Assembly (NCBI GenBank): GCA_017848965.1
Contig: JAFIHA010000043.1
Span: 153,371 to 217,370 of the forward strand
Direction of reading: 5' to 3'
DNA: 64,000 nucleotides
Origin: Dechloromonas aromatica (nom. nud.)
GTDB taxonomy: Bacteria; Pseudomonadota; Gammaproteobacteria; Burkholderiales; Rhodocyclaceae
The position numbers and the translations under genes are program-made. Below, piece by piece: positions 11,456 through 60,662 of the stretch. How positions within the stretch are numbered: the stretch's first letter is position 1; every line of letters starts with the position of its first letter. Under the pieces are notes generated by a model. That model made no database searches, had not been told where the DNA came from, and worked only from the letters and a program-made list of their open reading frames with translations.

Positions 11456-12691
<1,236 letters not shown>

Positions 12692-36275: not shown

Positions 36276-36314
36276 CGCCACACTCCATCAATGAATGATT
36301 GGAATGATGGGATG

Positions 36315-36326
36315 CCAGCCAGTATT
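36315..36326 (-). promoter_or_regulatory. Phage repeat motif copy A, upstream of the giant gene
   Basis: AATACTGGCTGG on the minus strand, 39 nt upstream of the giant gene ATG (33 nt from the alternative GTG), between a terminator and the gene. It is one of four identical 12-bp copies at phage gene junctions, here preceded by TGA (TGAAATACT resembles an extended -10). Candidate late promoter. Confidence 0.55.
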
Positions 36327-36340
36327 TCAGCCTGATCCGT

Positions 36341-36371
36341 CACGGAAAAAGAAAACCGCCCGAAGGCGGTT
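36341..36371 (-). terminator. Rho-independent terminator upstream of the giant gene
   Basis: AACCGCC-TTCG-GGCGGTT followed by TTCTTTTT on the minus strand. It ends the antirepressor transcript (36497 gene) before motif copy A starts the giant gene. The 36372-36496 stretch between holds nothing recognisable. Confidence 0.9.
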
Positions 36372-36496
36372 CATTCTGTGCGCGGCACACCAGAAGATCG
36401 CGTTGACCGTTTACTTGATCGCAAGGCGCTTATCCCATTGATTTTAAATGGTCTAGACGTAGCCCATTCCAACCAACAAAGTTTCGCTACCCAGCG

Positions 36497-37030
36497 TCAG
36501 CGCGACATGCGCCGCGATGTCATCCTGTCGATGTCAAGCAGCCCCCTGAACTTCTGGTATGCGGCATCATTCTCTGACTGGCGGTAGTCGTGGAATAGCT
36601 TCTGGATCAACCGCATTCCTTCTGCGGTATCTCTGAAAATCGCATCTTCAAGCGCCTTTTTCTTCTGTTCGATATCAACCTGTTGGTAGGGCTTTTGCCT
36701 TATCGGGCTGAATCCAAAACGCCACCAATCGACGGCGACAAACAGCTTCTTTGCACCAGTTGCGCCATCGGGTCGATCACGGAATAGTGTGTATTCAATC
36801 ATGTCGTCACTCCAATGAACGCGGTCAAATCCGGTGTCCGGCCACTTTGTTTCGGCGGGGATTACGCCCTCTGCTTCGAGTGCTGCGCGCGTTCCTTGGT
36901 ACTCTGCAATGCAGTGGTATGGCGTGCGCACAATGATTTCCGACTTGATGTCAAGCACCGTTCCAGCCGATAACTTTTCGATCTTGCTGCCGGCGATTTG
37001 CGAATCACAGGTTTTGGTCATAGAATCCAT
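36497..37030 (-). CDS. Phage protein of unknown function, third gene of the antirepressor operon
   Basis: A 177-residue soluble protein, not recognised. It is mixed alpha/beta at the front (VLDIKSEIIVRTPYHCIAEYQ, with a LFRDRPDGATGAKKLFVAVD strand pair) and helical at the C-terminus. The ATG at 37030 with GGTGG 8 nt upstream is preferred to a TTG at 37045. It follows the Rha/KilAC gene after a strong hairpin, in the operon driven from 38101. It might be an accessory early protein; no function is assigned. Confidence 0.7.
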   Translation of the reverse strand: MDSMTKTCDSQIAGSKIEKLSAGTVLDIKSEIIVRTPYHCIAEYQGTRAALEAEGVIPAETKWPDTGFDRVHWSDDMIEYTLFRDRPDGATGAKKLFVAVDWWRFGFSPIRQKPYQQVDIEQKKKALEDAIFRDTAEGMRLIQKLFHDYRQSENDAAYQKFRGLLDIDRMTSRRMSR

Positions 37031-37060
37031 GTTGATTTCCACCAAGAAATTGTTTCACCA

Positions 37061-37097
37061 AGCGCCCGGCGATTGCACTCGCCGGGCGCTTTCTTTT
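37061..37097 (+). terminator. Perfect 12-bp hairpin between antirepressor and 177-residue protein gene
   Basis: AGCGCCCGGCGA pairs fully with TCGCCGGGCGCT around a 6-nt loop, with TTCTTTT on the plus-strand side. On the minus strand, the direction of the genes, the tail is TTGGTG, so termination there would be weak. It may instead block antisense transcripts or act as an mRNA-stability or attenuation hairpin. Confidence 0.6.
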
Positions 37098-37107
37098 GCG
37101 AACGAAG

Positions 37108-37872
37108 TCATGCAGCGATCACGGCAAGCGAGTCGTTTCCTGGGCCGAAATACTCGGCGAGCTTGGCCAGCCCCTTCGGCGTAATGCGCGCCTGAGTCAC
37201 CACCTTTTCGGTGCCGTCGCTTCGCTCAACCGTATTGGTCTTGTGTTCGATGTAACCCGACTGGATTTTGTCCTGGTACGCAATCCAGCTTGTTCCTGGG
37301 CGCTGGTAAATCCACTTGTGCGAACTGAGCCAAGCAATCAAGTCCTTCAGGCGGATTTGCAGCGTCTTGGCTGCGTCGGTGAAGCACAGGCTTCCGTCGG
37401 CTGTGGCGATTCGATCAAGCGCTTCAACCTTCGGCGCCTGCTCGGCAACCTTTTCTTCCAGGGCGATGACCTTCTCGGTGTAAGTCAGCAGTAGGCCGCG
37501 CATTGCCGCTGGGTCGGAAAGAACGGTCATCGGGTCGGCGGAAGACTGACCGCGCAACTGCTCGGCCATTGCCCAAAACTCTTTGACCAGCCGCTTCTTG
37601 AACGCCCGCACGATGTCGCTGTTGCGCATGTAGGTAAGCAGGAGCGTTGATTGCTGCTCGTTGAGGATGGCGTATTCGGTTGCCTTCGCAAACCCACCCT
37701 GCGGCAGAGGCTTCCCCTTCTGGATTTCAAATCCGAGTGGGCCGAACTCTTCCATATCTGCCTGATATGAACGAACCAGTTTGATAACGCTGGCGTGGTC
37801 GTTTTCAGTGCCATGAGCAATTGCCAGCGAGGTAGTGACGACCTTGCCGTCGTTGATGGTGACGATGTTCAT
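37108..37872 (-). CDS. Rha/KilAC-domain phage antirepressor
   Basis: This 254-residue protein combines an N-terminal Rha domain (about 12-95: HGTENDHASVIKLVRSYQ, FEIQKG, YAILNEQQSTLLLTYMRN, VKEFW) with a C-terminal KilAC/ANT domain (about 150-250: LCFTDAAKTLQIRLKDLIAWL, then YQRPG and VTPKGLAKLAEYF). KilAC domains define phage antirepressors such as P1 Ant and P22-family Ant. It overlaps the Arc-like gene by 4 bp and shares its promoter, exactly as ant follows arc in P22. Its likely role is to inactivate a prophage repressor. Confidence 0.88.
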   Translation of the reverse strand: MNIVTINDGKVVTTSLAIAHGTENDHASVIKLVRSYQADMEEFGPLGFEIQKGKPLPQGGFAKATEYAILNEQQSTLLLTYMRNSDIVRAFKKRLVKEFWAMAEQLRGQSSADPMTVLSDPAAMRGLLLTYTEKVIALEEKVAEQAPKVEALDRIATADGSLCFTDAAKTLQIRLKDLIAWLSSHKWIYQRPGTSWIAYQDKIQSGYIEHKTNTVERSDGTEKVVTQARITPKGLAKLAEYFGPGNDSLAVIAA

Positions 37873-38036
37873 TGCCGACCTCCTGTTGCTTCTTCGTTGA
37901 TGCGGGATTTCTCAAGGCGATGGAGAACTTCGCTGTTGAGAGAACGATGGTTTTCGATCGCACTGTTCTGAAGCCAGCGCTTCAGGTCAGGCGGTAGTCG
38001 CACCGGAGTTGGCGTGACTTGTCGTGCATTCTTCAT
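37869..38036 (-). CDS. Arc-like ribbon-helix-helix repressor, 55 residues
   Basis: A short gene beginning MKNARQVTPTPVRLPPDLKR and containing ENHRSLNSEVLHRLEKS, the RHH pattern (strand, helix, turn, helix) of the Arc/MetJ family. Size (55) is close to P22 Arc (53). It starts the operon with the antirepressor and overlaps it (ATGA). By analogy Arc represses its own promoter to limit antirepressor synthesis; that is inference. Confidence 0.82.
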   Translation of the reverse strand: MKNARQVTPTPVRLPPDLKRWLQNSAIENHRSLNSEVLHRLEKSRINEEATGGRQ

Positions 38037-38072
38037 GGCTTGTCGTGCTCCTATGTGATGGCGTGTAGATCA

Positions 38073-38101
38073 ATAGTAGTACGCACTTCGTATCATCGCA
38101 A
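38073..38101 (-). promoter_or_regulatory. Promoter for the arc-antirepressor operon
   Basis: On the minus strand TTGCGA (38096-38101) and TACTAT (38073-38078) are separated by 17 bp; transcription would begin near 38066, 30 nt before the Arc-like ATG. The -35 lies inside the repeat region that is the probable operator. Confidence 0.68.
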
Positions 38102-38141
38102 GTGGATAGCATGGAAAAATATCAAGTGGCGAGTATCATCG
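38090..38141. promoter_or_regulatory. Operator-like repeats between the divergent repressors
   Basis: GTATCATCG occurs at 38090-38098 and 38133-38141 and CAAGTGG at 38099-38105 and 38123-38129. The order is GTATCATCG-CAAGTGG, then CAAGTGG-GTATCATCG. These direct repeats overlap the arc promoter and sit directly upstream of the Mnt-like start. They are candidate Arc/Mnt operators by position and analogy to P22 Pant/Pmnt. Confidence 0.55.
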
Positions 38142-38147
38142 GTCGCC

Positions 38148-38417
38148 ATGAGCACAGAAAAGCCGCCCTTCCCAAGTCGCGTAGCAGACCAGTTTGTGGT
38201 TCGCTTCCCTGACGGCATGCGCGACCGCATCCGCGAAGCCGCCGATGCCAACGGCCGCTCCATGAATGCGGAGATAGTCGCCCGCCTTCAGACGAGCTTT
38301 CATCATGACGATTTGGACAAACAGCCGGACTTGATCGAGCTGACCAATATGGTGACTCGGCTACTCAACTCGCTCGACGACATCAAATCGTTGCCAAGGA
38401 AGAAGGAAAGCGAATGA
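38148..38417 (+). CDS. Mnt-like ribbon-helix-helix repressor
   Basis: This 89-residue protein has an RHH domain (QFVVRFPDGMRDRIREAADA, then NGRSMNAEIVARLQ) very close in pattern to P22 Mnt (ANGRSMNSEL), plus a C-terminal helix (LIELTNMVTRLLNSLDDI) that could form Mnt-type tetramers. It diverges from the Arc-like gene. It likely maintains repression of the antirepressor promoter in the lysogen. The start is the ATG at 38148; earlier in-frame codons lie in the operator. Confidence 0.82.
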   Translation: MSTEKPPFPSRVADQFVVRFPDGMRDRIREAADANGRSMNAEIVARLQTSFHHDDLDKQPDLIELTNMVTRLLNSLDDIKSLPRKKESE

Positions 38418-38764
38418 ACCGGATGATCATTGCCGCCCTGCTCTGCCTTGTCGCCGCGCCAGTGATGGCCGCCGACAACTTCGCCGAGTGCATCATTGCC
38501 AAGATGCCGGGCGTGCAGAACGACATTGCAGCAAACGCCGTATTTCAGGTGTGCCAATCGAACAATCCGACCGGGTTCGTTTCTGTGCAACAAGGGGCCG
38601 GGATGGGTTTGTTCTCGCCGTCATCCGCTGAATGCGTCGCAAAGAATGCATCTGACACGAAGAGCTACAGGGCAGCATATCTAATCGGGATTGCCTGTAG
38701 AAAGCTATACGACGCGCCATCTGTTGATTGGGAAAGGGGTGAAATCACCCCTCCCAAGAATTAG
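38414..38764 (+). CDS. Secreted small protein in the prophage repressor operon
   Basis: A 116-residue protein with a clear signal peptide (MIIAALLCLVAAPVMAADNF, cleavage near 20). The mature part has four cysteines (Cys26, 47, 74 and 95), suggesting disulfides in the periplasm. It overlaps the Mnt-like gene (ATGA), so it should be expressed from the lysogen. No family recognised. Position suggests a lysogenic-conversion or superinfection-exclusion role, which is inference. Its stop overlaps the convergent late gene by 4 bp. Confidence 0.8.
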   Translation: MNRMIIAALLCLVAAPVMAADNFAECIIAKMPGVQNDIAANAVFQVCQSNNPTGFVSVQQGAGMGLFSPSSAECVAKNASDTKSYRAAYLIGIACRKLYDAPSVDWERGEITPPKN

Positions 38765-40089
38765 GATTTTTCAACCCACTTTGATCCGTCCCATACCGCA
38801 ACGCGGTCGCCCACCTTGGACGTTGTTCCAACCGGCCGGTCTGGCGCCACACTCTGCGGACGAATGGTTTTCCCTGTGGCTGGATCGACAGCAACCTCAA
38901 CCTTGTTTCCATTCGCGTCTTGCTCGGTTAAGGTCAAGAATCGATCTCTGACCCCAGGGGCTTGATCCAGCCTTACCCCGGCCGCCGCCGCCATTGTCCT
39001 GGCTCGAGCAATAGCGTTCTGGTCGCCGCTCTCAATCGCCTTGGCAAGATTGTCCTGTGCTGACTGCTGGCGCTGCATGGCAGATTTCTCGAGGCCAAAC
39101 CGCTGGTTCTCGATTCCCAGCCGCCCGATATCCAGGCCTAGGCGGGCATCGTTCCGCTGGCTTTCCATGTCCTGGCCGCGCAGCGTCAGGCCGAGCTTTG
39201 CCGCTTCCGCCGCCTGCCCGATGTCCTGGCCGCGCCGTTGAAGATCTAGCCCGGCGGCAATGCCCTGCTGGCGCATGCCCTCGACAGCGCGCTGCGTGTC
39301 GGCACCGGTAAGCGCGCCAAGGGCGGCAGCGGACGCCGACCGCTCGCTGCGCTTGCCGTACTTGATGCCAGACATCAGGTCATCGATCCGGCTGTTCATC
39401 CGCATGCGCTGCATGTCGGCGTTGTCGCGTTCTGCCTGATCGGGAAGAATGCCGATCCCGCCTTGCGGCTGGGCGTCGATCAGCTGCTTGGTGACGGCGT
39501 TCGCCTTCGCCTGGCGGGCAAGGCCTTCCGGCATGCCGGCGGCGATCCCTGGTACTGAACCTCCGGCATTGACTGCGCTGAACGGCGTACTGGTGATCCC
39601 TTGCGATGCAGCCTGCGCGCCGTAGCCTGGCAAGCCGGATGCAATTCCCGGTTGCTTCAGGCCTTCAACCGCTTGATTCACGTTCGACAGGTTCGTGTAG
39701 AGCGGCGACGACAGGCCGTTGCCGGTGATCCTGGAAATTCCAGGCTCGGATGTCTTGGCGATGTCGTAGGGCTTCTGGCCGACCGGGTTCCATTGCTGCA
39801 GTCCAAGCTTCGGCAGGTTTGCATCAATGGCCTGGCGCGTCGTCCTGCCCTCGTTGCCGTATCCAGGCAGTCCGAGGCCGGACGCCGCTGCCGGCTGGCC
39901 GGGCTGAGCCACCGGCTTCGGCTTGGCCGCTCCGGAGTCATAGGCGGCTTGGTCTGCAGCAGGAATGTCGGCCTGTTTCGCGGCGCCGAATCCAGTGCCG
40001 GTTGCGCGAGACAGGCCTTGGGCAACAGTCCTGACAGGCGTGTCCTGATTGATTGCGTTCTTCCAGTCTTCGAGAATTGTGAATGCCAT
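38761..40089 (-). CDS. Phage virion-associated protein, Gln/Ala-rich (unknown)
   Basis: A 442-residue protein not recognised. The first 200 residues are low-complexity Gly/Pro/Ala (QPGQPAAASGLGLPGYG; GLPGYG recurs near 150). Residues 230-370 are strongly helical and Gln/Arg-rich (GMRQQGIAAGLDLQRRGQDI, LTLRGQDMESQRNDARLGLD), a probable coiled coil. The C-terminus has a beta segment with VAVDPATGKTI. GAGG precedes the ATG. Motif copy B lies 35 nt upstream. It is likely an internal or ejection protein by context. Confidence 0.7.
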   Translation of the reverse strand: MAFTILEDWKNAINQDTPVRTVAQGLSRATGTGFGAAKQADIPAADQAAYDSGAAKPKPVAQPGQPAAASGLGLPGYGNEGRTTRQAIDANLPKLGLQQWNPVGQKPYDIAKTSEPGISRITGNGLSSPLYTNLSNVNQAVEGLKQPGIASGLPGYGAQAASQGITSTPFSAVNAGGSVPGIAAGMPEGLARQAKANAVTKQLIDAQPQGGIGILPDQAERDNADMQRMRMNSRIDDLMSGIKYGKRSERSASAAALGALTGADTQRAVEGMRQQGIAAGLDLQRRGQDIGQAAEAAKLGLTLRGQDMESQRNDARLGLDIGRLGIENQRFGLEKSAMQRQQSAQDNLAKAIESGDQNAIARARTMAAAAGVRLDQAPGVRDRFLTLTEQDANGNKVEVAVDPATGKTIRPQSVAPDRPVGTTSKVGDRVAVWDGSKWVEKS

Positions 40090-40124
40090 AGTTCAACCTC
40101 TTTCGGTATGTAGATGCTGGCATG

Positions 40125-40136
40125 CCAGCCAGTATT
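40125..40136 (-). promoter_or_regulatory. Phage repeat motif copy B
   Basis: AATACTGGCTGG on the minus strand, 35 nt before the ATG at 40089 and 9 bp after the stop of the upstream gene. It is followed by GCATGCCAGC, which can fold with it into a short hairpin (GCTGGCATGCCAGC). Confidence 0.55.
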
Positions 40137-40145
40137 CGGGGAGGA

Positions 40146-41168
40146 TTACTCCTCGCGGCTGACATTGACGTTGTAGGAACTGGAATGCCGCGTTCCGCCA
40201 TCGAGGGAAACGTTCAGGTTGTTGTAGAGCGCTGCGGTCATCTGGGCAATTGCCTGCGCTTCAGCCATCAGGGCTTTTACGCGCTCTGTCATTGTCGCTA
40301 TTTTTGCCGCCTGGTTCTTGCTTGCCACATCTAGGTCAGACGTTGCGTTGAACTGAGCCACGCGACTGGAAAGCTCTGCCGCGGCAATGTCGGCCCGGTA
40401 GAAATCAGCCGCTGACCGAATCAGTTCGTTCTGCACCCCGGTGATCTTCACCGCCTCGCCCGGTGACGTGGCAAGCGTCTGGATATAGGAAACGGTCGAT
40501 GCCATTGCCGACTGGCGAAGCCCGAGCAACTGAGTGACCGAAAACTGCTGGAAGTCGAGCGCCAGCTTCGACAGCGCCCGGGACGATGCGGCAATCTCGC
40601 CCTGTGCCTTGCGCTCGATCTCGATCACCGCGCCGGAAGCCTGGCCGGGAGGCATCGGAAAGCCGCGCGCAGCGAATGAAGCCAGGACAGAGGATTTCGC
40701 CCGTTCCGCATCATTGAGAATCCGCGTCCGGTCGTCCTCGAAAACCGCGTCACGAACTGCTGCCGGAATTCCGGAATCTGCCGGGTTGTCGATAGCTTCC
40801 TGCAGCCAGGTCTGTGCCGCAGAGAACCCTTCCGCCTCGTTCGGGAAGTGCGTGCCGATGAAGACGGTCATGCGCGCCGTCAGCTCGTCCATCATTGACT
40901 GATACTGCGACTCGTACAGCGTCACCGAATCATCAACGTTTGCTGGAATATCAATGGCAGGAGCAGTGATTGACGGAGCGGAAATGTTCGCCTGGTCGGC
41001 AATCTGCGGCGCGCTGCTCGGGTCGATATCAGACTGCGCCGCAGCCATCTTCGTTGAAAACTGTATCGCCTTGGCGTCTGCTGCCGTCCAGGTTGTATCG
41101 ATGATCTGGTTGAGCAATATCAGCGGAGACGATGCATTGTCCGGATCAACGGTAGTTCCAAAAGCCAT
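40146..41168 (-). CDS. Phage structural protein of unknown function
   Basis: A 340-residue mostly helical protein, starting at the ATG at 41168 with GGAGG upstream. An Ala/Pro-rich region (PSITAPAIDIPANVDDSV) is followed by long helices (ESQYQSMMDELTARMTVF; RALSKLALDFQQFSVTQLLG; KAQGEIAASS). Such proteins in related phages sit between tail and ejection genes. Not matched to a family here. It is coupled to the upstream gene. Confidence 0.7.
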   Translation of the reverse strand: MAFGTTVDPDNASSPLILLNQIIDTTWTAADAKAIQFSTKMAAAQSDIDPSSAPQIADQANISAPSITAPAIDIPANVDDSVTLYESQYQSMMDELTARMTVFIGTHFPNEAEGFSAAQTWLQEAIDNPADSGIPAAVRDAVFEDDRTRILNDAERAKSSVLASFAARGFPMPPGQASGAVIEIERKAQGEIAASSRALSKLALDFQQFSVTQLLGLRQSAMASTVSYIQTLATSPGEAVKITGVQNELIRSAADFYRADIAAAELSSRVAQFNATSDLDVASKNQAAKIATMTERVKALMAEAQAIAQMTAALYNNLNVSLDGGTRHSSSYNVNVSREE

Positions 41169-41170
41169 GG

Positions 41171-42754
41171 TCAAATCCTCCTGTTCGATGCGACCGGCGC
41201 GAATTCGACGCTGGCCAGGGTAAAGTCGGCGCCGTCGTCGCCAATCAACGAGATCCGGAACCAGTTGTCACGAAGGCCTTTTCCTGGATCGACGCGATGA
41301 ATATCGAGCGAGTCCGGCGAGAACGACCGCGCTTGGTAGTCGTAACTTTCGTTTTTTGCGCCAACCCTGATCTTCAGCGCATCACCACACTGCGCGCCAA
41401 GGTAGATTGCCGGCATCCGCTTTTCCGCGGAGGTACCGAAGTCTTCGAGTCCGAAATCGACGCTGTACGTAACCTCGCCAAGCGATCCGATTGAATGAAA
41501 TCCATCCGGCGCCGTTGCAAATCCACCGCGGAAAGACGTGAAATCGAAGTCTTCGTAGCGGGTCGCTGCGCCGTTCCCAAGGTTGATGCACCAGCCACAG
41601 GAAACCACGCGGTCGCGTCGGTCGGTTGTGAGCACAAGAGACGCCCCGCTCGCCGGCAGCGCGCCGACATCGACCGCGCCATCCATCGGCAGCGACACCT
41701 CGCCGCCCGGGTTGAGGATTGCGAATCCCTTCGTCGAGAACCAACCGAACACCGGGCGATCTGGATGCTCGAACTCTGTCCCTGGAACGGCGCCAAATTT
41801 TCCGACCAGACGAAAAGCGATTTCCTGACCATCAAGATCACGACCGGCGATGTAGTAGGTGTGCGTGGCTGTGGCCACATAGATTCCGTCCTGCGCGCCG
41901 GCGGCGCAGGTGATGTCGGCCGGGAACGGAATGACGCCGCTGGCGGGCCGGTAGTAGCCGTAGCGATACGGCTGGCTGAAATAGAGACGGTTTCCTGACA
42001 CCGAGCACAGCCGGCCGTTGAATTCGAATATCCGGCTTCCTGCCGGAAGCGGCGCCTCATGTTCTCGAATCGACTGCTGACCATCGGCCGGCGTAGCCAG
42101 GTCGATCGATGCATCGCCAACAGGCTGCGAGGTGTGAAGCATTGGAACGTCGCCGTCGTTGCCGGTGAGATAGACGTTGATCTTCACCGCGCCCTCTGGT
42201 GCCGTCGGAAGCGTGACGCGCACCCCGCCGCCAGCGACATCGATCGCACCCATCTCCGACAGGGCGCCCTCATGCTCGTCGTCAGAAAACGAGATTGCCA
42301 CGCCGTAGCGCCCGGCGCTCAGCCCGCCAGCGATGTCGGCCAGGGCCGGGGCGCTCGGCGCCGGCAACGCCCACGGCACGATTGCACCGGCGCAATTTCG
42401 CCTCAAGCCATCGGTTCCGTTCGACAGGTACAGTCGGCCATCTGCGACCTCGGCATAACTCATGCGAGAGTTGCTTTCCAGAATGCGCTCGAGCGCCATC
42501 GATCCGCCGGGAAGACCCACGACGTAGAGGGATGACGATAGGACAGCAAGCCCATCGAACAACGAATGAACGCCAGCTATTTCGGCGACAAGTTCGGAAG
42601 CAATGCGTCTGCACAGGGAGCCGTCATTGTCGATGTCGACATTCACCGCATCGGCAAGATATCGACCGGACTTGTCCGGTGTTTTTACCGATAGTGACGT
42701 TGCCGGCAGCCTGTTGTTGATCCCGAGAAAGGCGGGGTAGCGGATGGGTTTCAT
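41171..42754 (-). CDS. Phage tail accessory, beta-propeller-like protein
   Basis: A 527-residue beta-rich protein with repeated short strands and motifs such as LFDGLAVLSSSLYVVG, FNGRLCSVSGNRLYFSQPYRYG, GIYVATATHTYYIAG and CGWCINLGNG, consistent with a propeller-type tail hub or stabilisation protein (P22 gp10-like role). The family is suggested by pattern, not proven. It is coupled to the 761-residue protein by a 1-bp stop/start overlap. Confidence 0.6.
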   Translation of the reverse strand: MKPIRYPAFLGINNRLPATSLSVKTPDKSGRYLADAVNVDIDNDGSLCRRIASELVAEIAGVHSLFDGLAVLSSSLYVVGLPGGSMALERILESNSRMSYAEVADGRLYLSNGTDGLRRNCAGAIVPWALPAPSAPALADIAGGLSAGRYGVAISFSDDEHEGALSEMGAIDVAGGGVRVTLPTAPEGAVKINVYLTGNDGDVPMLHTSQPVGDASIDLATPADGQQSIREHEAPLPAGSRIFEFNGRLCSVSGNRLYFSQPYRYGYYRPASGVIPFPADITCAAGAQDGIYVATATHTYYIAGRDLDGQEIAFRLVGKFGAVPGTEFEHPDRPVFGWFSTKGFAILNPGGEVSLPMDGAVDVGALPASGASLVLTTDRRDRVVSCGWCINLGNGAATRYEDFDFTSFRGGFATAPDGFHSIGSLGEVTYSVDFGLEDFGTSAEKRMPAIYLGAQCGDALKIRVGAKNESYDYQARSFSPDSLDIHRVDPGKGLRDNWFRISLIGDDGADFTLASVEFAPVASNRRI

Positions 42755-46131: not shown

Positions 46132-46161
46132 TGTGGTCCTCCTTTGGGAAATTCTGCCTCC

Positions 46162-46173
46162 CCAGCCAGTATT
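46162..46173 (-). promoter_or_regulatory. Phage repeat motif copy C
   Basis: AATACTGGCTGG on the minus strand, preceded by GT (GTAATACTGG), 30 nt before the ATG at 46131. It overlaps the last two bases of the upstream gene stop. Downstream is GGAGGCAG. Confidence 0.55.
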
Positions 46174-46626: not shown

Positions 46627-46628
46627 GG

Positions 46629-50532: not shown

Positions 50533-50537
50533 GGAGC

Positions 50538-50918: not shown

Positions 50919-50934
50919 GTCTTCTCCTTCAGGA

Positions 50935-52037: not shown

Positions 52038-52040
52038 GAT

Positions 52041-52601
52041 TTACTCGACGTGGTTGCCCGGCCGGTGAGCGCCATTCAGGTCGGCGAGTGCGTCGGCGTC
52101 AGTCAGGACTGGGCGCGAAAGCTGGGAGCGAAGTTCGTAGCCCATCAGCGGCCAGATTTTCGCCACAGCGTTCTGGCGGGCGATCTTGCGGCCAAGTTCG
52201 GCGTCGAAGTTCTCCGGACTGGCGCAGGCGGATTCGCCGGTGACGGTGAAGCCGTTGCGCAGGACGAGGACGCAGAAGGTCAGCAGGCTGAGGCCGGGCA
52301 TGACGGGCGAGCCGCCGATAACATGCTCAAGCATCTCCTTGGCTTGGCCAGCGTGCAGCAGGTTGGTGCCGCTCGGCCACCAGGCGCTTTCCTCGAACGA
52401 AATCCCGCCATCCGGCGCGAAGTCCTTCGGCAGCCTCCATGCGAGGAAGCGGCCAACCATGTCTCCGGTAACGCCGCTAACGGCCTGCTCGGCGGTGAAA
52501 AAGTATTCGGCCGCAATATTCGCCTCGATGTCAGCCGGCGTGATGCGCGGCGCGGTCAGCCCCTTGGCCTGGATTTCTTGCTCGATGGTTTGGTCGTCCA
52601 T
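52041..52601 (-). CDS. Gp49-like phage protein (N4 gp49/Sf6 gp66 family)
   Basis: A 186-residue protein starting at ATG 52601 (MDDQTIEQEIQAKGLTAPRI) with AGAGGAA upstream. The middle and C-terminus (PSGTNLLHAGQAKEML to LSLLTFCVLVLRNGFTVTGE, then DAELGRKIARQNAVAKIWPL) match the Gp49-like family present in N4-, Sf6- and other phages. Function unknown. It lies between the endolysin and Rz genes. Confidence 0.8.
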   Translation of the reverse strand: MDDQTIEQEIQAKGLTAPRITPADIEANIAAEYFFTAEQAVSGVTGDMVGRFLAWRLPKDFAPDGGISFEESAWWPSGTNLLHAGQAKEMLEHVIGGSPVMPGLSLLTFCVLVLRNGFTVTGESACASPENFDAELGRKIARQNAVAKIWPLMGYELRSQLSRPVLTDADALADLNGAHRPGNHVE

Positions 52602-52617
52602 TTTCAATTCCTCTTGG

Positions 52618-53469: not shown

Positions 53470-53479
53470 GCTTTCCTCG

Positions 53480-54124
53480 TCAAAATGAATGGCCGACGAC
53501 ACGACGAACGACGTTGATACGCATGCGTCGCATCTTTGTTTCATCCGGCCTCGGGCCAAAGGTTTTTTCGAACTCGCCTTCGTGAGCAGACGCCCTGCCA
53601 GGGTCAAACGTGTCGGCGTCGATCTTGCTGAATGCGCGATGTAGAGCCCAGTCGATCAGCTTCATGTGCAAACGATCATGAATCTCAGGTTTGTCAGTTG
53701 GCTGTGACAATTCACGCTTCGGTGTACAGAAAGCCTCAACAATCGCGATCTCGTTGGATTCCGGAATCGGGTATAACCGAAGGCGTCCGTCGATTTCGTA
53801 GCAAGCGATCGGATCGCCTGTTCTCTCCATCCAGCCGATTACTTCGCCGGAATCAAGCATTTCTCGATCGACAAGGCTCAGGGATTTGCGACCAGGAACT
53901 TGCACGCGCCTGATCGACCACACATTGCACGGATAATCGGCATATGCCTCGCCGGCGCACAGGTCGATTTCAATATCGTCGGAAACGATCAGGCGAGCCC
54001 GGATACAGGCTTCCGATACGGCTTCGTTGAGATAGGCAATCCACTCGGGATCTGACCAGAAAAACGGCTTTCCGGTATCTCCAGATTTCAACCTGCACGC
54101 CTTGATCAGTTCGCCGAGGTTCAT
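53480..54124 (-). CDS. Phage head-tail adaptor/connector-like protein
   Basis: A 214-residue soluble protein starting MNLGELIKACRLKSGDTGKP, with WSDPEWIAYLNEAVSEACIR, a pattern of phage adaptor/connector proteins bound to the portal (DUF6682-like). The middle contains LRLYPIPESNEIAIVEAFCT. By position after the capsid set it is likely part of the neck. Family assignment is tentative. Confidence 0.65.
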   Translation of the reverse strand: MNLGELIKACRLKSGDTGKPFFWSDPEWIAYLNEAVSEACIRARLIVSDDIEIDLCAGEAYADYPCNVWSIRRVQVPGRKSLSLVDREMLDSGEVIGWMERTGDPIACYEIDGRLRLYPIPESNEIAIVEAFCTPKRELSQPTDKPEIHDRLHMKLIDWALHRAFSKIDADTFDPGRASAHEGEFEKTFGPRPDETKMRRMRINVVRRVVGHSF

Positions 54125-54130
54125 CGCCGA

Positions 54131-54670
54131 TTAACCTTCGTTCTTTCCGGCATCGGCCAGCTTCGCAGCGATGGTTTCCGTCTTCATGGCGTGGTGCGGC
54201 TTCTTGCCGAACTTGGCAACGTAGGCCGCGATCAGTTCGTCGCGGTTGTCCTCGCCATCTGCAGCAAGTTTGTCGAGCTCGGCGTCGATCAGGTCTGCGC
54301 GCTCTCCTTCCGGAATTGAGTTCCAATCCTCGACCGATAAGCCGGTAGCAGCGTGCGCTTTCGCAACGATCTCTCCAAGCGTGTAGGTGCGACCTTTGAT
54401 TTCAAACTCGGAGGGATGAACGGACGTTCCATGCAGGGCAACAGGGTAGATTCCTTCCTGCTTTACGGATTCGGAAGACTTCTGCGCGACTTTTGCGCTG
54501 TCGTCGCCGACAGCCTCGCGGAAACCCTCCTTGATCGACAAGAAGCGCTTGATGTGTACCTCGTCGGTAACGTCACAGGTGTGGTCGAGATCCGGCGAGA
54601 AGAAATACACCTTGTCGCCGAGACCCACAGTTGTTCCCTTGGCTCGGCGAATGATGGACTGGATTTTCAT
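54131..54670 (-). CDS. Phage protein with C-terminal HeH-like domain
   Basis: A 179-residue protein. The C-terminus (about 140-175, RDELIAAYVAKFGKKPHHAM then KTETIAAKLADA) has the helix-extended-loop-helix pattern of HeH/SAP domains that bind nucleic acids and are seen in phage head fibre and related proteins. A terminator lies just upstream of its RBS. It may be a head-associated protein. Confidence 0.62.
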   Translation of the reverse strand: MKIQSIIRRAKGTTVGLGDKVYFFSPDLDHTCDVTDEVHIKRFLSIKEGFREAVGDDSAKVAQKSSESVKQEGIYPVALHGTSVHPSEFEIKGRTYTLGEIVAKAHAATGLSVEDWNSIPEGERADLIDAELDKLAADGEDNRDELIAAYVAKFGKKPHHAMKTETIAAKLADAGKNEG

Positions 54671-54686
54671 GGGTAGATGCCCTTAT

Positions 54687-54719
54687 AAAAACGCCGCCCT
54701 GGCTTGGGCCCGGACGGCG
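54687..54719 (-). terminator. Terminator after the capsid-accessory gene
   Basis: CGCCGTCC pairs with GGGCGGCG (one G-T wobble) around an inner GGGCCC-containing loop, followed by TTTTTA on the minus strand. It lies between the 149-residue gene and the HeH-like gene and should set high capsid and low downstream expression. Confidence 0.85.
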
Positions 54720-54741
54720 CTTGGTTGCACTACGCCCTGCG

Positions 54742-55191
54742 TCAAGCAGAGCGATACAGCAGGGTCAAGCCGATGGTTCCGCTGGTCGCCGACGTATCGG
54801 TGGCGATCTTGATGCCGACCGGTCGATTCGCAGCCTGGTTGGCAGCGCAGCGCGACATGGAACGCAGACCGGCCGCGTCGGCCCGCAGGCCGTTGGCGTT
54901 CGTAACGGCGCCGCCGGTAAGCCAAGCTGCCCCACCAGAGGCGGTGGCATCGAGATCGTCCTTGTCGGCATTCAAGATTCCGACCGAGACAGTGCCTGCG
55001 CCGAGCGCGTCGTTATCGACAATGATGTCGACCGGGACGTGGCCGGCCGGGAGCGGCATCATCTCGATGATGTCGTTGGCGGCCAGGTCGGCGGTCAGAG
55101 TGAAGGAAGCCCGGCAGACGACGACTTCGCAGCCAGCGGCAACCGGAGTAGTGATCACGCCTCGGGCGTGAGCGGATTGTTTCAGAGCCAT
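54742..55191 (-). CDS. Capsid-accessory/decoration protein candidate
   Basis: A 149-residue beta-rich protein starting MALKQSAHARGVITTPVAAG, directly downstream of the capsid gene and upstream of a terminator. It contains DIIVDNDALGAGTVSVGILN and ends with TIGLTLLYRSA. Such a position and size in N4-gp56-type phages fit a capsid decoration or cement protein. Not proven. Confidence 0.62.
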   Translation of the reverse strand: MALKQSAHARGVITTPVAAGCEVVVCRASFTLTADLAANDIIEMMPLPAGHVPVDIIVDNDALGAGTVSVGILNADKDDLDATASGGAAWLTGGAVTNANGLRADAAGLRSMSRCAANQAANRPVGIKIATDTSATSGTIGLTLLYRSA

Positions 55192-55222
55192 GTTGGTTCT
55201 CCTTGGTTACGGTGGCCAGCGA

Positions 55223-56341
55223 TTACTGCGGGTCGGCGCAGGCAGCGTCGGCCGCGATAACGCCGAAGTCGTAGCTGTTGCCGTTGATCGTGAAATTCGA
55301 CTTCTTGACGCCGAAGATCGAACCCGTGGTGATCACAACCTGGTTGCCGCGGTCTTCCAGTTCCTCGTTCCAGTCGAAACGCAGACCGGTGCCCGGGGAA
55401 CCGAACGCGACAACACCGGCCTGACGGCCGAGCAACAGGTTGCGGGCAGCGGCAACGTTGCTGCCGGCGCCGTAGTCGCCGAAGCGGATCACGCCCTTGT
55501 GCTTGTGCAGCACGACGTTGTTGTGCATACCCAGACCGCCCTTGACGATCGGCGAGTTGCGGCCTTCCGAGGTTGCCAGTGCCTTCTGGATGTCCAGCCA
55601 GCCGCCGGTGCCGACGCCGGTGCGCAGGTCGTACTCGCACCACGGGTGCATCACGAAAACGAAGTGTTCTTCGCCGTCGATCATCACCGGCTGGATGGCA
55701 GGAATACCGGTCGTTCCGCCACCCATGACTTCCGCGCGGGCAACCAGGCGATCGATCATTGCGAGAGACATCTTGTCGGTGGCGTCCAGGGTAGCCTTGC
55801 TCGTCGCGTCGCCGGCGTACATCAGGTGCTGGGAATCCGGAGCGGAGAATGCGTTGCCGGCGTAACCCGTGAAGTCCGTGTCTTCGATGTAGTCCGGGTT
55901 GATACCGCGGGCGCCGGACAGGTACATGAAGAGGGTTTCGTCGAACAGACGAGCCCACCAGTCGGACTGCCGAACGCGCGCCGTCTTGCGCAGATCGTGA
56001 ATCGTGCGCTTGCGGGTCATCTTGCCACCGGTGTTCACGCCACCGCGCAGCTGATCGATCATCAGGTTGTCGGTGTAGAACTTCAGGTCTTCTTCCTTGC
56101 CGCGCAAGGTGGCGTCGCCCTGAATCGGCTTCATCTTCAACTGCATCACCAGGTCGTAGCTGATCTGGTCGCCAGCATCGTTTTCCAGATGCGGCAGGGT
56201 CTGCAGGGGGGTTTGGGCATCTTCGCCAACGCCCATGAACTTCTTGTTCCAGTAGCTCTTGCGGCTGGTATCAACAGCCAGAAAAGCGGAATACTTCTTG
56301 ACGGCTTTCGGGTCGCCGGCTCCAACGATAGTACGAGGCAT
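55223..56341 (-). CDS. Major capsid protein (N4-gp56 family)
   Basis: A 372-residue capsid protein. Motifs such as TSRKSYWNKKFMGVGEDAQT, DLVMQLKMKPIQGDATLRGK, ARLFDETLFMYLSGARGINP and FVFVMHPWCEYDLRTGVGTG match the N4-gp56 capsid family. The ATG at 56341 with a strong AAGGAG is preferred over the in-frame start at 56425, which lies in a leader with hairpins and motif D. It is followed by a decoration-like protein and a terminator. Confidence 0.9.
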   Translation of the reverse strand: MPRTIVGAGDPKAVKKYSAFLAVDTSRKSYWNKKFMGVGEDAQTPLQTLPHLENDAGDQISYDLVMQLKMKPIQGDATLRGKEEDLKFYTDNLMIDQLRGGVNTGGKMTRKRTIHDLRKTARVRQSDWWARLFDETLFMYLSGARGINPDYIEDTDFTGYAGNAFSAPDSQHLMYAGDATSKATLDATDKMSLAMIDRLVARAEVMGGGTTGIPAIQPVMIDGEEHFVFVMHPWCEYDLRTGVGTGGWLDIQKALATSEGRNSPIVKGGLGMHNNVVLHKHKGVIRFGDYGAGSNVAAARNLLLGRQAGVVAFGSPGTGLRFDWNEELEDRGNQVVITTGSIFGVKKSNFTINGNSYDFGVIAADAACADPQ

Positions 56342-56406
56342 GAGAGAACTCCTTGGAAAATACCTCTGTCCCAAGGCGCACTCTTGCGCACCCGACTTTT
56401 GTATCC

Positions 56407-56423
56407 GCCCGGACGAACCGGGC
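56407..56423 (-). other. Hairpin in the capsid mRNA leader
   Basis: GCCCGG-TTCGT-CCGGGC on the minus strand forms a stable stem-loop between motif copy D and the capsid ATG. A smaller GCGCA-AGAG-TGCGC hairpin follows. The leader, about 100 nt, may stabilise or regulate capsid mRNA. Confidence 0.5.
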
Positions 56424-56434
56424 ATGCATGATGT

Positions 56435-56647
56435 TTATACCGCGCCAGCCAGCATTTTTTCCTGCTCGCTTCGCCCAACACCGGTAACAACAGATGTTTC
56501 GCGCTGCGGCGGCTGTATCAACACCGAATCGTCGGCCTCCACGCTTATCCTGGCGCGCTGCCCGGATTTCTCCAGCAGCGTGACAACGATCTGGCCGTTA
56601 TTGAAGGTCAGGGTTTCCCCGACGCGGAGGTCGACTTTCAGGCTCAT
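56435..56647 (-). CDS. CsrA-like small protein in the phage head operon
   Basis: A 70-residue protein: MSLKVDLRVGETLTFNNGQI then VVTLLEKSGQRARISVEADD SVLIQPP. It aligns by eye with CsrA/RsmA (RVGETL, the I-V-L-x-x-x-G-x-x-R-I-x-V-x-A core strands), an mRNA-binding regulator. The N-terminal LTRRxGE is replaced by LKVDLRVGE. It lies between scaffold and capsid. It could bind phage or host GGA-containing leaders; its role is inferred. A divergent or structural use of the fold is also possible. Confidence 0.62.
   Translation of the reverse strand: MSLKVDLRVGETLTFNNGQIVVTLLEKSGQRARISVEADDSVLIQPPQRETSVVTGVGRSEQEKMLAGAV
56445..56456 (-). promoter_or_regulatory. Phage repeat motif copy D (variant)
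   Basis: AATGCTGGCTGG on the minus strand, one base different from the four exact copies, inside the last codons of the CsrA-like gene and 103 nt upstream of the capsid ATG. Because it also encodes MLAG, its significance is weaker than for the intergenic copies. Confidence 0.4.
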
Positions 56648-56652
56648 GATGG

Positions 56653-57621
56653 CTATGCCGAAATTCCCAGGTAGCGTGCTTCCTGTTCCGGCGTAAGCTT
56701 GCGCAGCGCCTGCTCGAGCGCGATGCCTTCCAGCTTGTCCAGGTAGGCGAATTCGTCGGAACCAGTCTCGGCAATGTCTGCCGCCGGCAGGTTGGCCAGC
56801 GTTTTCGGCAACTTCGAAAAGTCCGGATCGCGGCGATGCTTCGTTTCCTTGGCCTTGTCATCGGCTGCCTTGGTGTTGCCGATGATGTTGAAGCGATGAC
56901 GAATCTGACGATCGGCTTCTTCAAGGAAGAAGGATGCCGGCTTGCTGGCGTGTGCCTTGTCGGCCGCCAACTGCTTCACCGAAGCATCGAGCGCGGCCAT
57001 CATGATCGGATCCTTGTAGATGCCCGCCTTCTCTTGGCCGAAGAAACGCTCTTGCTCCCACTTCCAGCGCTGGGCGCGGGCGTCCTCGTTCTGGCTCTGC
57101 GCCCATTCGGCCTGCTTCTGCGCAAGCGTCAGCTGCAGGCGCTCGTTGTCGATGGCTGATTTCTGCGCCATGAAGTCGGGAAGGTCTATTTCACCGGTCT
57201 CGAGCTTTTCGATCAGGTCAGCGGTACGGGTATCGAGCGCAGTAATCTTGTCTGCCAGGCCTTCCGGAAGTTGGGCCCGGAATTCGGGCTGGAACTCGGC
57301 GGAGACCTGTGCCGGCGCGTCGTCGGCCACACCGTCATTGCTGTTGTCGTCGGCATTGTCCGGCTTGGAATCGCTAGCGGCAGCAGCAGCGACGGCCTCG
57401 GCGGCGTCATTGTCGCCAACGCCGGCGTCACCATCGTCATGGTCATCGCCAGAAGTAGCAGCGCCTTCGCTATTCTTGCCATCGTTATCGTCGTCATCTT
57501 CGCCGACAATGTTCTTGAGGATTTCCGATTCATCGTCGTCATCCTCGAGTGCGGCGCGCTCTTCGTCGGACAGACCTTTCATGTCGAGGTCGTCGTCGAG
57601 GTTTTCGTCTTTCGTTCCCAT
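56653..57621 (-). CDS. Capsid scaffolding protein candidate
   Basis: A 322-residue very acidic protein: an Asp/Glu-rich N-terminus (LEDDDDESEILKNIVGEDDD, DDHDDGDAGVGDNDAA) then a helical, charged C-terminal half (RLQLTLAQKQAEWAQSQNED, FFLEEADRQIRHRFNIIG). Composition, helical content and position immediately before the capsid gene fit a scaffold. No protease motif was seen. Confidence 0.75.
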   Translation of the reverse strand: MGTKDENLDDDLDMKGLSDEERAALEDDDDESEILKNIVGEDDDDNDGKNSEGAATSGDDHDDGDAGVGDNDAAEAVAAAAASDSKPDNADDNSNDGVADDAPAQVSAEFQPEFRAQLPEGLADKITALDTRTADLIEKLETGEIDLPDFMAQKSAIDNERLQLTLAQKQAEWAQSQNEDARAQRWKWEQERFFGQEKAGIYKDPIMMAALDASVKQLAADKAHASKPASFFLEEADRQIRHRFNIIGNTKAADDKAKETKHRRDPDFSKLPKTLANLPAADIAETGSDEFAYLDKLEGIALEQALRKLTPEQEARYLGISA

Positions 57622-57651
57622 GAACTCTTGCTCCTGTGGGCGGTGGTTAAA

Positions 57652-57843
57652 TTACGATTCAGCTTTCTCGGAAGCGACGGCTGCCGCTTCCAACATTCGC
57701 TCTTTGGCCTTGGCCTGGGCCTTGGCAAGTCGCTTCGGATCTTTCTTGATCTGCTCTGCCTCGATCAGCGTGCGCAAATCGGAATCGGCTTTCCAGTCTT
57801 CGTCAGATACGCAGCAGACGCTGCTCTTGGATTTCTTTGCCAT
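57652..57843 (-). CDS. Small basic phage protein
   Basis: A 63-residue Lys/Ala-rich helical protein (MAKKSKSSVCCVSDEDWKAD, KDPKRLAKAQAKAKERMLEA). It sits between portal and scaffold with 30 bp and 3 bp gaps. Function unknown; a packaging or portal-associated role is possible. Confidence 0.6.
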   Translation of the reverse strand: MAKKSKSSVCCVSDEDWKADSDLRTLIEAEQIKKDPKRLAKAQAKAKERMLEAAAVASEKAES

Positions 57844-57846
57844 GGT

Positions 57847-60162
57847 TCATGCTCCGTTCGGGTTGATCACGCCATCGGCGCGCTGGGTTTCAATGCCAGA
57901 CATCTCGCCAACGCCGGCGGTCACCGGTGTCATCGGGCTGGTATTGGTTGGGAAATCGACCTGGGGCTTGATTGCCTCCGGGGAAACCGGGAAGTTCGGA
58001 TCTACACCGGCGGGATTTGGATCCTGGTAGCCGGCGCCCTTCATCACTTCGTCTGCGATCGGGGCAACCGCTGGCGTAGCAGCAATCACCTGTCCGGCCT
58101 GCATCGCGGCGTAGGCAGTTTCGGTGCCCTTCTTCACGGAGGCGGCGATCAAGTCCTTTGTCTGGGCGCGCAGTTTCTCAAGCTCGGCGCGTAGGCGATC
58201 GACCTCCATCTGCTCCGCCTCGGCCTTCTTGCGGTCTGCCTCTTCCTGAGAGGCGATTTCCTCAGGCGTCGGATCAGTATCCGGGTCGCGCTGGCCATTG
58301 ATTTTTCGGATGCGGGATACCATTTCCTCGCGCCCAGGAAGATCGGCCATGTCGACGACAAGATCCAGGAGATTCAATGCGATCTTCGGATCCATCTGTG
58401 CCAGACGACCAACGATATCGAATAGGCTTTCGAACATGGCCTGGCGCAGCGACGACTTGAAGTCTTGTTCGCTGACAACGTAATCGGCGTGATTTGCCGT
58501 GATGTCGTTCAGCACCTCACCGGTATCCGGGTCAATCTTGTTGATTTGGTGATACTTGGCCGCGCCGCGCTCGCCAAGCACGCGGATGACCTTTTCTTGG
58601 GTGTAGAACTGCTCGACCATCGACAGCGATATCTCGCCTTCGAGCTGCACTGCGTAGCGCAGGTTATCGAAAATCTCGGCTGTGACTACGCCGCCCTGCT
58701 CCTGGCGAGCAAGAATGGCTTTGCCCGAATCGGCGCTTGTCTGGCGGCCAAGATTTTCGGCGGTGACGCCAGCCACATTACGAATGTGGTTTGCATCGCG
58801 ATCCATCAGGTTCAGGTGCTCTTCAGCCAGTGCGTTATCGCGGCTGATGGTTAATTCCTTCCCCTTGTTCTTGACCACAACCCCATCCGGGCGAGCCACC
58901 TCGTTACGCAAATCTTCGATGTCGTCGACAGCGCCATCTTCCATCTCCACGCGATTGGTAGAGAGAATCCAGAGCGCCTTCGAAGAGCGCTTGTTGAGGT
59001 CGTCTTGCGGGTCGCGAATCTGGCGAATCGCGCCATAGGGCGCGTTGTCACGCTGGCGGCGATAGCACCAGATCGGAACGAACGGCAGTCGGCCGTGGGT
59101 GTATGGGCTCTGCCCCTCCCACACCAAGCCTGCAGACGTGAAGATCGCGCAACGCACTTCCATTTCGAGTTTGTCGAAGGTGCTGGCGCCGGCGCGCAGC
59201 ATGGCAATGTGTTCTGCGTTTCTGGAATCGAACGCCTCGCCCCGGAAGTCACCGGACGAGAACCGGCGGCGCAATACCGGCATGCGGTACCAGCACTCGA
59301 CCATCTTCACGCGTGAGCGCCGCGACCAGGCGAGCGCCGAATGATCAATTGGCGTGAATCGACCAACCGACGCGCCGGCGTAATCTTGGCCCGGCGCTGT
59401 CACCCGTGCCCCCATGTACCAAATATCGTCGTCGCTCTCGGTGGCCAACGAGACGCCATCGGTTACAGCGCGACGGATGACGTCGGCGCGGTCCGGGAAA
59501 TATGCGGTCGCAACGTCCTCGTCCAGCCATTTCCACCGGAAGATATAGCGTGCCTCCGACAAGTCACGGGATGCGTCGTTCGAGTCGTATAGGATGTTTC
59601 GCCAGGATTCGTGCCGCTTGTACAGGAGTTCTTCAGTCGGGTCGCCGCGCAGACCGAGCTCAATCCAGCCAACGCCGGCCCGAACGGAATCACCAAAGGC
59701 GTGCGAGCGATGAAACACCGTCTTGTTGGTGTCGTCCAGATACTTGAGCAACTGCGTCTTTGCCTGAGCCGAATCGTTGTCGTTCTTCTCGCGGCCGAGC
59801 ACCTTGAAGTCGATGCGGGTCCGGCGCTCGGTACCAATGATCCAGTCGATCGTCGGCTTTACCTCGTTGAAGACGAGCGGCGCCTGATTGCGATCCATCA
59901 GTACCTTGGCGTCTTCCTCGGACCACTGCAGGCCATCGTAGTAATCGCAGTCCAGAGCCATCTGGTATCGGTTGGCCGCCTGTCGCTGCCATTCCTGGTC
60001 GAACCACTCCTGCAGCTTTCCGAACCTGGCGCGCATCTCCGCGGATTCAAGTCGATGCGCTGGCGCTGCCTGCGTCTCGACAACATCAGCCTTGCCGCCA
60101 AAGCGGCTGTCGTCATCGAAAGCCGATGATGCCCGGGAATTTGTGAAGCCATTGTCGCTCAT
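57847..60162 (-). CDS. Portal protein (P22-type)
   Basis: A 771-residue portal, the dodecameric DNA gate at one capsid vertex. Features include ALDCDYYDGLQWSEEDAKVL, NEVKPTIDWIIGTERRTRID, DARxxLRAG-like helices, and the long acidic helical C-terminal tail with EADRKKAEAEQMEVDRLRAE, as in P22 gp1. The tail is longer than the core portal, consistent with a P22-type barrel. It overlaps the 150-residue gene by 4 bp. Confidence 0.9.
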   Translation of the reverse strand: MSDNGFTNSRASSAFDDDSRFGGKADVVETQAAPAHRLESAEMRARFGKLQEWFDQEWQRQAANRYQMALDCDYYDGLQWSEEDAKVLMDRNQAPLVFNEVKPTIDWIIGTERRTRIDFKVLGREKNDNDSAQAKTQLLKYLDDTNKTVFHRSHAFGDSVRAGVGWIELGLRGDPTEELLYKRHESWRNILYDSNDASRDLSEARYIFRWKWLDEDVATAYFPDRADVIRRAVTDGVSLATESDDDIWYMGARVTAPGQDYAGASVGRFTPIDHSALAWSRRSRVKMVECWYRMPVLRRRFSSGDFRGEAFDSRNAEHIAMLRAGASTFDKLEMEVRCAIFTSAGLVWEGQSPYTHGRLPFVPIWCYRRQRDNAPYGAIRQIRDPQDDLNKRSSKALWILSTNRVEMEDGAVDDIEDLRNEVARPDGVVVKNKGKELTISRDNALAEEHLNLMDRDANHIRNVAGVTAENLGRQTSADSGKAILARQEQGGVVTAEIFDNLRYAVQLEGEISLSMVEQFYTQEKVIRVLGERGAAKYHQINKIDPDTGEVLNDITANHADYVVSEQDFKSSLRQAMFESLFDIVGRLAQMDPKIALNLLDLVVDMADLPGREEMVSRIRKINGQRDPDTDPTPEEIASQEEADRKKAEAEQMEVDRLRAELEKLRAQTKDLIAASVKKGTETAYAAMQAGQVIAATPAVAPIADEVMKGAGYQDPNPAGVDPNFPVSPEAIKPQVDFPTNTSPMTPVTAGVGEMSGIETQRADGVINPNGA

Positions 60163-60611
60163 GCCGCCGCCAACTCCGCATCGGTCGGCGCCGTTACTTC
60201 TGCTTCGTGAATCGTCTCGCCGTCGATCTTCACAACCATCTCGCCGATGGCCTGGGCCTGTTCCTGGTTGAACTGCTGCGGCTCCGGCGGCATGTCGACC
60301 AGGTCTGGCAGGCTATCTACGATCACTTCGGCAATCCGGCGAGCAGCGAAGGTGTCGGTCGGAGAGAAGCCAAGTTGTTGAGCAGCTTGAACGGAAGTGC
60401 GAACCAGGTACGGCGTCGGACCGCCTGTCTTCGAGTCGGCGTATTTGAACGCCGCCGAAATCCCGATGACGAAAGCGCCGGCGCCGGGCAGAGAGCGCCG
60501 GGCCGGGAACAGGATCATCGCGGGCTCTTCATTGACCCACTGGAACGAGACAGCGATATCGCCGTGCTGACGAACTTTCCAGGCTTTGGCGCCACCAATC
60601 TGAACAGGCAT
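60159..60611 (-). CDS. Phage protein of unknown function before the portal
   Basis: A 150-residue protein starting MPVQIGGAKAWKVRQHGDIA, with FQWVNEEPAMILFPARRSLP and GAFVIGISAAFKYADSK. Its ATG follows a T7 run of a terminator hairpin with the SD inside the stem, so expression may be low or regulated. Not recognised. Confidence 0.62.
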   Translation of the reverse strand: MPVQIGGAKAWKVRQHGDIAVSFQWVNEEPAMILFPARRSLPGAGAFVIGISAAFKYADSKTGGPTPYLVRTSVQAAQQLGFSPTDTFAARRIAEVIVDSLPDLVDMPPEPQQFNQEQAQAIGEMVVKIDGETIHEAEVTAPTDAELAAA

Positions 60612-60637
60612 AAAAAAACCCCACCGAAACGATGGGG
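60612..60637 (-). terminator. Terminator overlapping the ribosome-binding site of the next gene
   Basis: CCCCATCG-TTT-CGGTGGGG (one T-G pair) with a T7 run ends directly at the ATG (TTTTTTTATG). It terminates the terminase transcript. The GGTGGGG that would serve as the Shine-Dalgarno is in the stem. Confidence 0.82.
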
Positions 60638-60650
60638 TGATTCTGTTGCG

Positions 60651-60662
60651 CCAGCCAGTATT
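60651..60662 (-). promoter_or_regulatory. Phage repeat motif copy E
   Basis: AATACTGGCTGG on the minus strand (TTGAAATACTGG), 39 nt before the ATG at 60611 and 4 bp after the TerL stop. A promoter here would lie upstream of the terminator, so the two together resemble an attenuator for the portal operon. Confidence 0.55.

Follow-up and report, generated by a model that had tools for sequence, protein, structure and literature searches.

The window analysed here, 64,000 nucleotides of Dechloromonas aromatica contig JAFIHA010000043.1 (G000:C14:153371-217370 of 217370), ends where its contig ends. The late half of a P22/Bcep22-like prophage occupies its right part (about 25.7 to 64 kb), and in this prophage a 12-bp motif, AATACTGGCTGG, recurs ahead of late genes. 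On the minus strand the late region begins with ninG (63212-63805), a gene for a winged-helix protein of 116 amino acids (aa; 62865-63215), terS and terL for the small and large terminase subunits (62117-62872 and 60667-62130), a 150-aa gene (60159-60611) and a P22-like portal gene (57847-60162). A PHROG 8246 protein, the major capsid protein (55223-56341, its start corrected to 56341), virion genes and an Rz-like spanin follow. The order closes with tail-like genes, more structural genes, an anti-repressor-like gene and a gene for a 3504-aa DarB-type virion protein (25767-36281, with a likely in-frame ATG at 36275). Cultured phages with a related portal share less than 60% identity with it and include Bcep22-like phages, Atu_ph08 and POI1126.

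The preliminary description of this DNA had listed four exact minus-strand copies of the 12-mer, and we find them at 36315-36326, 40125-40136, 46162-46173 and 60651-60662, together with the single-mismatch copy AATGCTGGCTGG at 56445-56456. All five lie on the coding strand, each ahead of a late gene. The distance from the exact copies to the next ATG, given there as 30-39 nt, measures 39, 35, 30 and 39 nt, and for the fifth copy the distance to the true capsid ATG (56341) is 103 nt. When up to two mismatches were allowed, nine matches were found in the window against 2.5 expected, a number reached in none of 100 shuffles; two of the nine, at 12454 (two mismatches or more distant) and 28737 (inside the giant gene), were placed in the host half. 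In the host genome, where a frequency check had been proposed earlier, eight exact copies occur in 4.24 Mb, four in the prophage and four elsewhere, and the contexts of the latter, judged by eye and without annotation, look protein-coding.

Each of the five copies belongs to a longer layout that consists of the box AATRCTGGCTGG, a 5-bp gap and a -10-like hexamer. The resulting putative late promoters, all on the minus strand, are termed P1 to P5. P1 lies at the terL/portal junction (60640-60662, hexamer CAGAAT at 60640-60645, predicted start at about 60633), with the 150-aa gene as the first behind it, and P2 heads the capsid operon (56434-56456, TATAAA at 56434-56439, predicted start at about 56427). 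P3 (46151-46173, CAGAAT at 46151-46156) precedes the gene of a 133-aa virion protein, P4 (40114-40136, CAGCAT at 40114-40119) a 442-aa gene and P5 (36304-36326, CATCAT at 36304-36309) the giant DarB-like gene. A 23-bp matrix, trained on 11 sites of relatives only and then scored on the window, ranked exactly these sites as its top five (33.2, 32.6, 26.8, 25.5 and 23.4 bits; the next position scored 9.1), and the -10 part of the matrix alone placed them within the top 0.016 to 1.6% of all positions. With box and -10 at the fixed spacing and at most one mismatch, the genome yielded seven matches, namely the five phage sites without a mismatch and two others with one, versus two matches of the reversed control pattern. 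Across phages the hexamer depends on the junction: capsid sites read TATAAA, TATAAC or TGTAAT, and portal sites CANAAT in 7/8 cases, the exception being GACAAT in the related phage L104. P2 may be the strongest of the promoters.

At the normal spacing, no good -35 was present at the sites. The best match to TTGACA at 15-19 bp spacing ranged from 2 to 5 of 6 positions over 16 sites, with a mean of 3.6 versus 2.7 at random places. Where -35-like letters do occur (8/16 sites), they read TTGAAA, CTGAAA or TCGAAA and overlap the first bases of the box; at portal sites they are in part the terL stop codon. An extended -10 within the 12-mer (TGAAATACT), as suggested at first, found no support; the -10-like element stands 5 bp downstream of the 12-mer. 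A sigma54 promoter was rejected by eye because of the misfit in GG/GC spacing. A phage-encoded RNA polymerase had also been put forward as the reader of the motif, and several near-identical copies ahead of phage genes agree with an enzyme of the single-subunit kind. However, both hexamer and box vary across sites and the -10 is of the sigma70 type. A six-frame search for PF00940 in the host genome and seven related viral records gave 0/8, which is weak evidence as 14 control genomes were silent too, and the early region of the prophage lies outside the window. We regard such a polymerase as the least probable of all explanations considered.

The same layout is found in related phages. Capsid relatives were collected from genome contigs and viral contigs (the best 80 of each listing); among the matches listed, 176 loci had a capsid match, 172 of them with at least 200 nt upstream, and these represent 146 distinct leaders. 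The box AA[AT][AG]CT[AG] occurs 35 times in these leaders, and 18 of the 146 combine it with a hexamer of at least 4/6 identity to TATAAT at offset 17, versus 0 to 3 leaders at each of the other offsets tested (10 to 25). The box falls into classes: AATRCTGGCTGGC in the window, L010, L103/L148, L186 and L204; AATGCTRGTGGGC in L009; AATGCTGGCGGGC in L011; WATGCTGGCCT in L104; AAWGCTGGCCGC in L107; AAAGCTGGCCGAC in L023 and L109; and AATGCTAAT in the group of L105, L014, L015 and L119. Orthologous sites keep the same junctions, as illustrated by the counterparts of P1 in L009, L010, L011, L104, L148/L103, L186/L101 and L204. A pattern scan of viral contigs returned 47 stretches, among them relatives with a site at known junctions (L101, L103, L148, L186, L204 and L201, the last of these on the contig that also carries L010) and L200, which has two late genes in common with the window and one site behind terminator-like sequence; the remaining stretches were taken as unrelated from their contexts. 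The -10 at fixed spacing, the lack of a good -35 and the conserved orthologous junctions support well the earlier proposal of a phage promoter family.

The records of L104 (59.6 kb) and L107 (54.4 kb) hold about five sites of their own class each, all on the late strand. Six extra sites were inspected, and those at L104 2698, L235, L236, L237 and L239 are located directly ahead of a gene or behind the end of one. L238, which overlaps a reading frame, and L241, which lies in a transposase-like frame, were not counted as promoters. At L104 2698-2727, a terS promoter would start its RNA at or beside the ATG, possibly giving a leaderless message. The prophage of isolate record 2531839537 seems to be split over two contigs (L204/L241 and L225), and a transposase-like frame, recognised by eye upstream of terL, may explain the break.

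A search for an RNA polymerase or activator gene beyond position 64000 had been proposed. The contig ends there, and a candidate late activator lies inside the window: the 116-aa winged-helix gene (62865-63215, minus strand) sits between ninG and terS, the slot of Q in phage lambda. The regulator was found for 12 of the 18 box-bearing phages (two of them via a sister contig); five of the other six are fragments unable to show it and one is uncertain. It was found in 0/15 box-free viral records, 11 of which have more than 9 kb upstream; little can be read from L114 and L123, where less than 3 kb precedes the capsid gene, or from L113 and L018, where about 7 kb does. A regulator search in the box-free genome L021 gave a best E of 0.095, and none matched on the 12.6-kb contig of L200. 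Moreover, the box variants track the relatives of the winged-helix protein across phages. The window protein itself matched no Pfam and no PHROG family at E up to 1; the best matches among 13 members of the regulator family were FaeA (1.3e-4, 4/13 matching) and phrog_2030 (0.002, 7/13). With the regulator profile, the best sequence match in the PDB had an E of 0.21. Foldseek produced nothing that reached E 0.001, its best match being at 0.012, and tblastn with three regulator queries detected no homolog in 50,697 phage records at E 0.1. The winged-helix protein is the most likely candidate for a late activator acting at the box.

A class-wide search with the regulator profile was positive in 2/369 genomes, the window's own and G250. 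In G250 the gene stands directly before a terS-like frame and its product, by eye, most resembles that of L107; the 20 kb read showed neither a portal nor a capsid gene like those of the window. In this stretch the L107-class core AGCTGGCCGC is found a single time, at the end of terS and with TACTAT at offset 17 (0.10 expected by chance; 21/200 shuffles have one). A first pattern search in G250 with another box class had given one unrelated match and eight control matches, and the core was noticed while reading after that failure. We therefore treat G250, as a remnant carrying regulator and matching box core, as a consistent case and not as a blind test.

Two readings without an activator can be weighed against these data. 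If the box were an operator or stoperator, it would silence late genes in the lysogen; its asymmetry, single orientation, intergenic position and multiple copies are shared by the stoperators of cluster A mycobacteriophages (PMC9283540). The fixed spacing to the -10 and the site-specific conservation of the latter argue against a repressor site. The early-side contig L225 (26 kb) contains no box copy, the linked gene stands in lytic order before terS, and we consider this reading highly unlikely. Gene junctions are also where mosaic exchange occurs, and the box might be a neutral linker, a recombination boundary sequence or an RNA-level element. This seems barely credible to us, as the box drifts with the regulator class while its 17-nt spacing to the -10 is kept.

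P1 overlaps a terminator-like element (60612-60638, minus strand), a hairpin at 60619-60638 followed by a T run; the 5' arm of this hairpin precedes the predicted start. A second terminator-like hairpin with a T run is located just upstream of P5 (36346-36370, minus strand). With +1 set 7 nt after the -10 for hairpin and fold comparison, the 5' arm falls at about -6 to -1 in 7/8 portal junctions (the window, L009, L010, L011, L148, L186 and L204), and the L104 and L107 phages each have another junction with the same layout. Because of this position, only RNA reading through from upstream would fold the hairpin. Predicted folds of the seven portal junctions range from -10.9 to -21.5 kcal/mol for read-through RNA versus -3.5 to -9.0 for RNA from +1, and the two further junctions gave -17.3 versus -1.6 and -21.6 versus -6.5 kcal/mol. 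A T run follows the hairpin in the window, L009, L010 and the two further sites and is weak in L011 and L148. In read-through RNA at P5, the ribosome site would pair with the -10 to +1 stretch (-15.1 versus -8.2, without a T run). The hairpins may terminate transcription or mask the ribosome site.

Terminator-like hairpins near a box that lies in the spacer between the -35 and -10 positions, and a regulator gene in the slot of lambda Q before the terminase genes, are also what antitermination of the Q or AlpA kind would have in common with this prophage. From the box, the winged-helix protein would load onto a paused RNA polymerase, and terminators would then be ignored. Both QBE and ABE are sites in the spacer of -35 and -10, and CTGGCTGG shares with the Q21 site the form of a direct repeat; the likeness of the box is one of position relative to the -10 only. 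Weak TTGAAA/CTGAAA letters at 15-16 bp spacing in 8/16 sites fit as well. On the other hand, the sites lack a -35 at normal spacing, +1 is not followed by any consistent -10-like pause element (the best matches at the five window sites have 2, 2, 4, 3 and 3 of 6 positions and no fixed sequence), each phage has about five copies, and the 5' arms of the hairpins lie upstream of +1. Overall, we find antitermination unlikely. The fixed -10 was the reason to rank both a single Q-type promoter and stoperators low.

In this temperate P22/Bcep22-like podovirus we probably face, as far as can be read from sequence, late promoters that depend on an activator, with the 12-mer as their upstream half and a host sigma70-type RNA polymerase as their reader. 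Bound to the box, at about -29 to -18, the 116-aa winged-helix protein of the phage itself would enable the polymerase to open such a promoter although a -35 is missing. With five of them, the late region would fall into separate units: one for the portal, one from the capsid gene on, two further blocks of structural genes and one for the giant DarB-like protein. At the portal junction, read-through from terL would be stopped, or its ribosome site masked, by the hairpin, which RNA begun at the promoter could not form. Of the preliminary interpretation, the promoter family is retained and so is a host sigma factor helped by a phage activator, for which the same evidence and the co-occurring winged-helix gene argue well; the extended -10 and the phage polymerase are not.

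Several findings weigh against the activator-dependent promoter. The -10 of P4 is poor (3/6), and the lack of a -35 is not absolute, given that 8/16 sites match TTGACA at 4-5 of 6 positions, only at the short 15-16 bp spacing. The hairpin is absent at the L104 portal junction and at P4 (-4.3 versus -3.1), pairing at P3 is weak (-6.5 versus -4.6), and L186/L204 have no T run. The box pattern applied to the leaders was fixed after part of these leaders had been read. At two mismatches, a reversed control is nearly as frequent as the box in L104 (6 versus 7) and L107 (4 versus 5), so that the case for the extra sites there is made by the class of the box, its strand and its place. In L024 the box is weak and the 10 kb upstream contain no regulator; a homolog is present elsewhere in the same metagenome bin. 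Atu_ph08, POI1126 and BcepIL02, read by eye, are without such a site at two junctions. Finally, co-occurrence and shared variation tie the protein to the box, and shared ancestry can mimic both.

Known systems resemble the proposed promoter in part. T4 middle promoters likewise rely on a DNA-binding activator of the phage and on a box in place of the -35, ahead of a host -10 (PMC6755090), but the MotA box is centred at about -30, the 12-mer at about -23.5, and MotA has a double-wing domain and works with AsiA. In phage Mu, several late promoters share one phage activator, C, and the host polymerase (PMC4461284); C, however, binds upstream of the -35 region and not between the -35 and -10 positions. 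Q21, lambda Q and AlpA have the protein site in the spacer and the regulator gene before the late genes, whereas here we find several copies, no good -35 and no consistent pause element. In alphaproteobacteria, the small regulators GafA/GafYZ of gene transfer agents activate a late cluster that resembles one of a prophage, yet the element of GafY is located at -123 to -113, ahead of a normal -10/-35 promoter and with IHF, and serves a single promoter. The Bcep22-like phages BcepIL02, JC1 and Atu_ph08 have related portal and capsid proteins, a giant DarB-like protein and the late gene order in common with the window, but no such box at the junctions read and no regulator homolog in the tblastn search. 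In the related phage Atu_ph08, gp5 is reported to be a regulator of the GcrA type, which might be a further regulator of late genes.

More tentatively, although it is quite conceivable, the winged-helix protein could define a new family of phage late activators, small proteins in the slot of lambda Q that stand in for -35 recognition from a place within the spacer; the box codes would vary with the protein across lineages, and promoters placed in terminators would insulate the late units. It might also antiterminate and thus play a double role. Late-gene switching in temperate phages outside the coliphage models is mostly unknown; here a promoter set and a candidate regulator can be read from the DNA, natural variants of both exist, and the placing of promoters within terminators hints at a way for a compact phage to keep adjacent late units independent of each other. 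Literature searches with the box and leader-hairpin strings returned one unrelated small RNA listing, although the founding Bcep22/BcepIL02 paper (PMC3187461), which lay outside these searches, might mention them. No literature was found on overlapping promoters, terminators and late genes, and the word 'promoter' is absent from the accessible part of PMC9144972.

Behind P5, the 3504-aa protein matches DarB-type methyltransferase families and apparently has its own late promoter; the name DarB is taken from the Atu_ph08 paper (PMC6630229). The anti-repressor-like gene (Ant/Rha families) is located within the late region at 37108-37872 (minus strand).

The capsid mRNA leader (56376-56423, minus strand) contains a 5' hairpin at 56407-56423 and a conserved GCGCANGAGTGC hairpin at 56376-56391. 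Capsid leaders keep their fold in read-through RNA and in RNA from +1 alike because these hairpins lie after +1. The GCGCANGAGTGC hairpin and close forms stand 31-53 nt before the capsid ATG in 67/146 distinct leaders, versus 0/146 intragenic control stretches. Among the 67 leaders with a match, 48 distinct GAGTGC-type hairpins with enough flank were used for covariation analysis. Among these 48 sequences, covariation is seen in the two pairs adjacent to the core (81% and 71% paired versus 45% and 47% in shuffles, reached in 0/1000) and not in the pairs further out. Rfam gave no match between 25000 and 64000 of the window at E up to 1. A role of the GCGCANGAGTGC hairpin in the control of capsid translation is possible. 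BcepIL02 (L252, 12607-12993) carries a CsrA-like gene directly before its capsid gene, and its capsid leader hairpin GCGCAGGATGTGC has GGA in the loop, like a CsrA site. CsrA prefers GGA in a loop, and on this basis gene and hairpin may be linked in BcepIL02.

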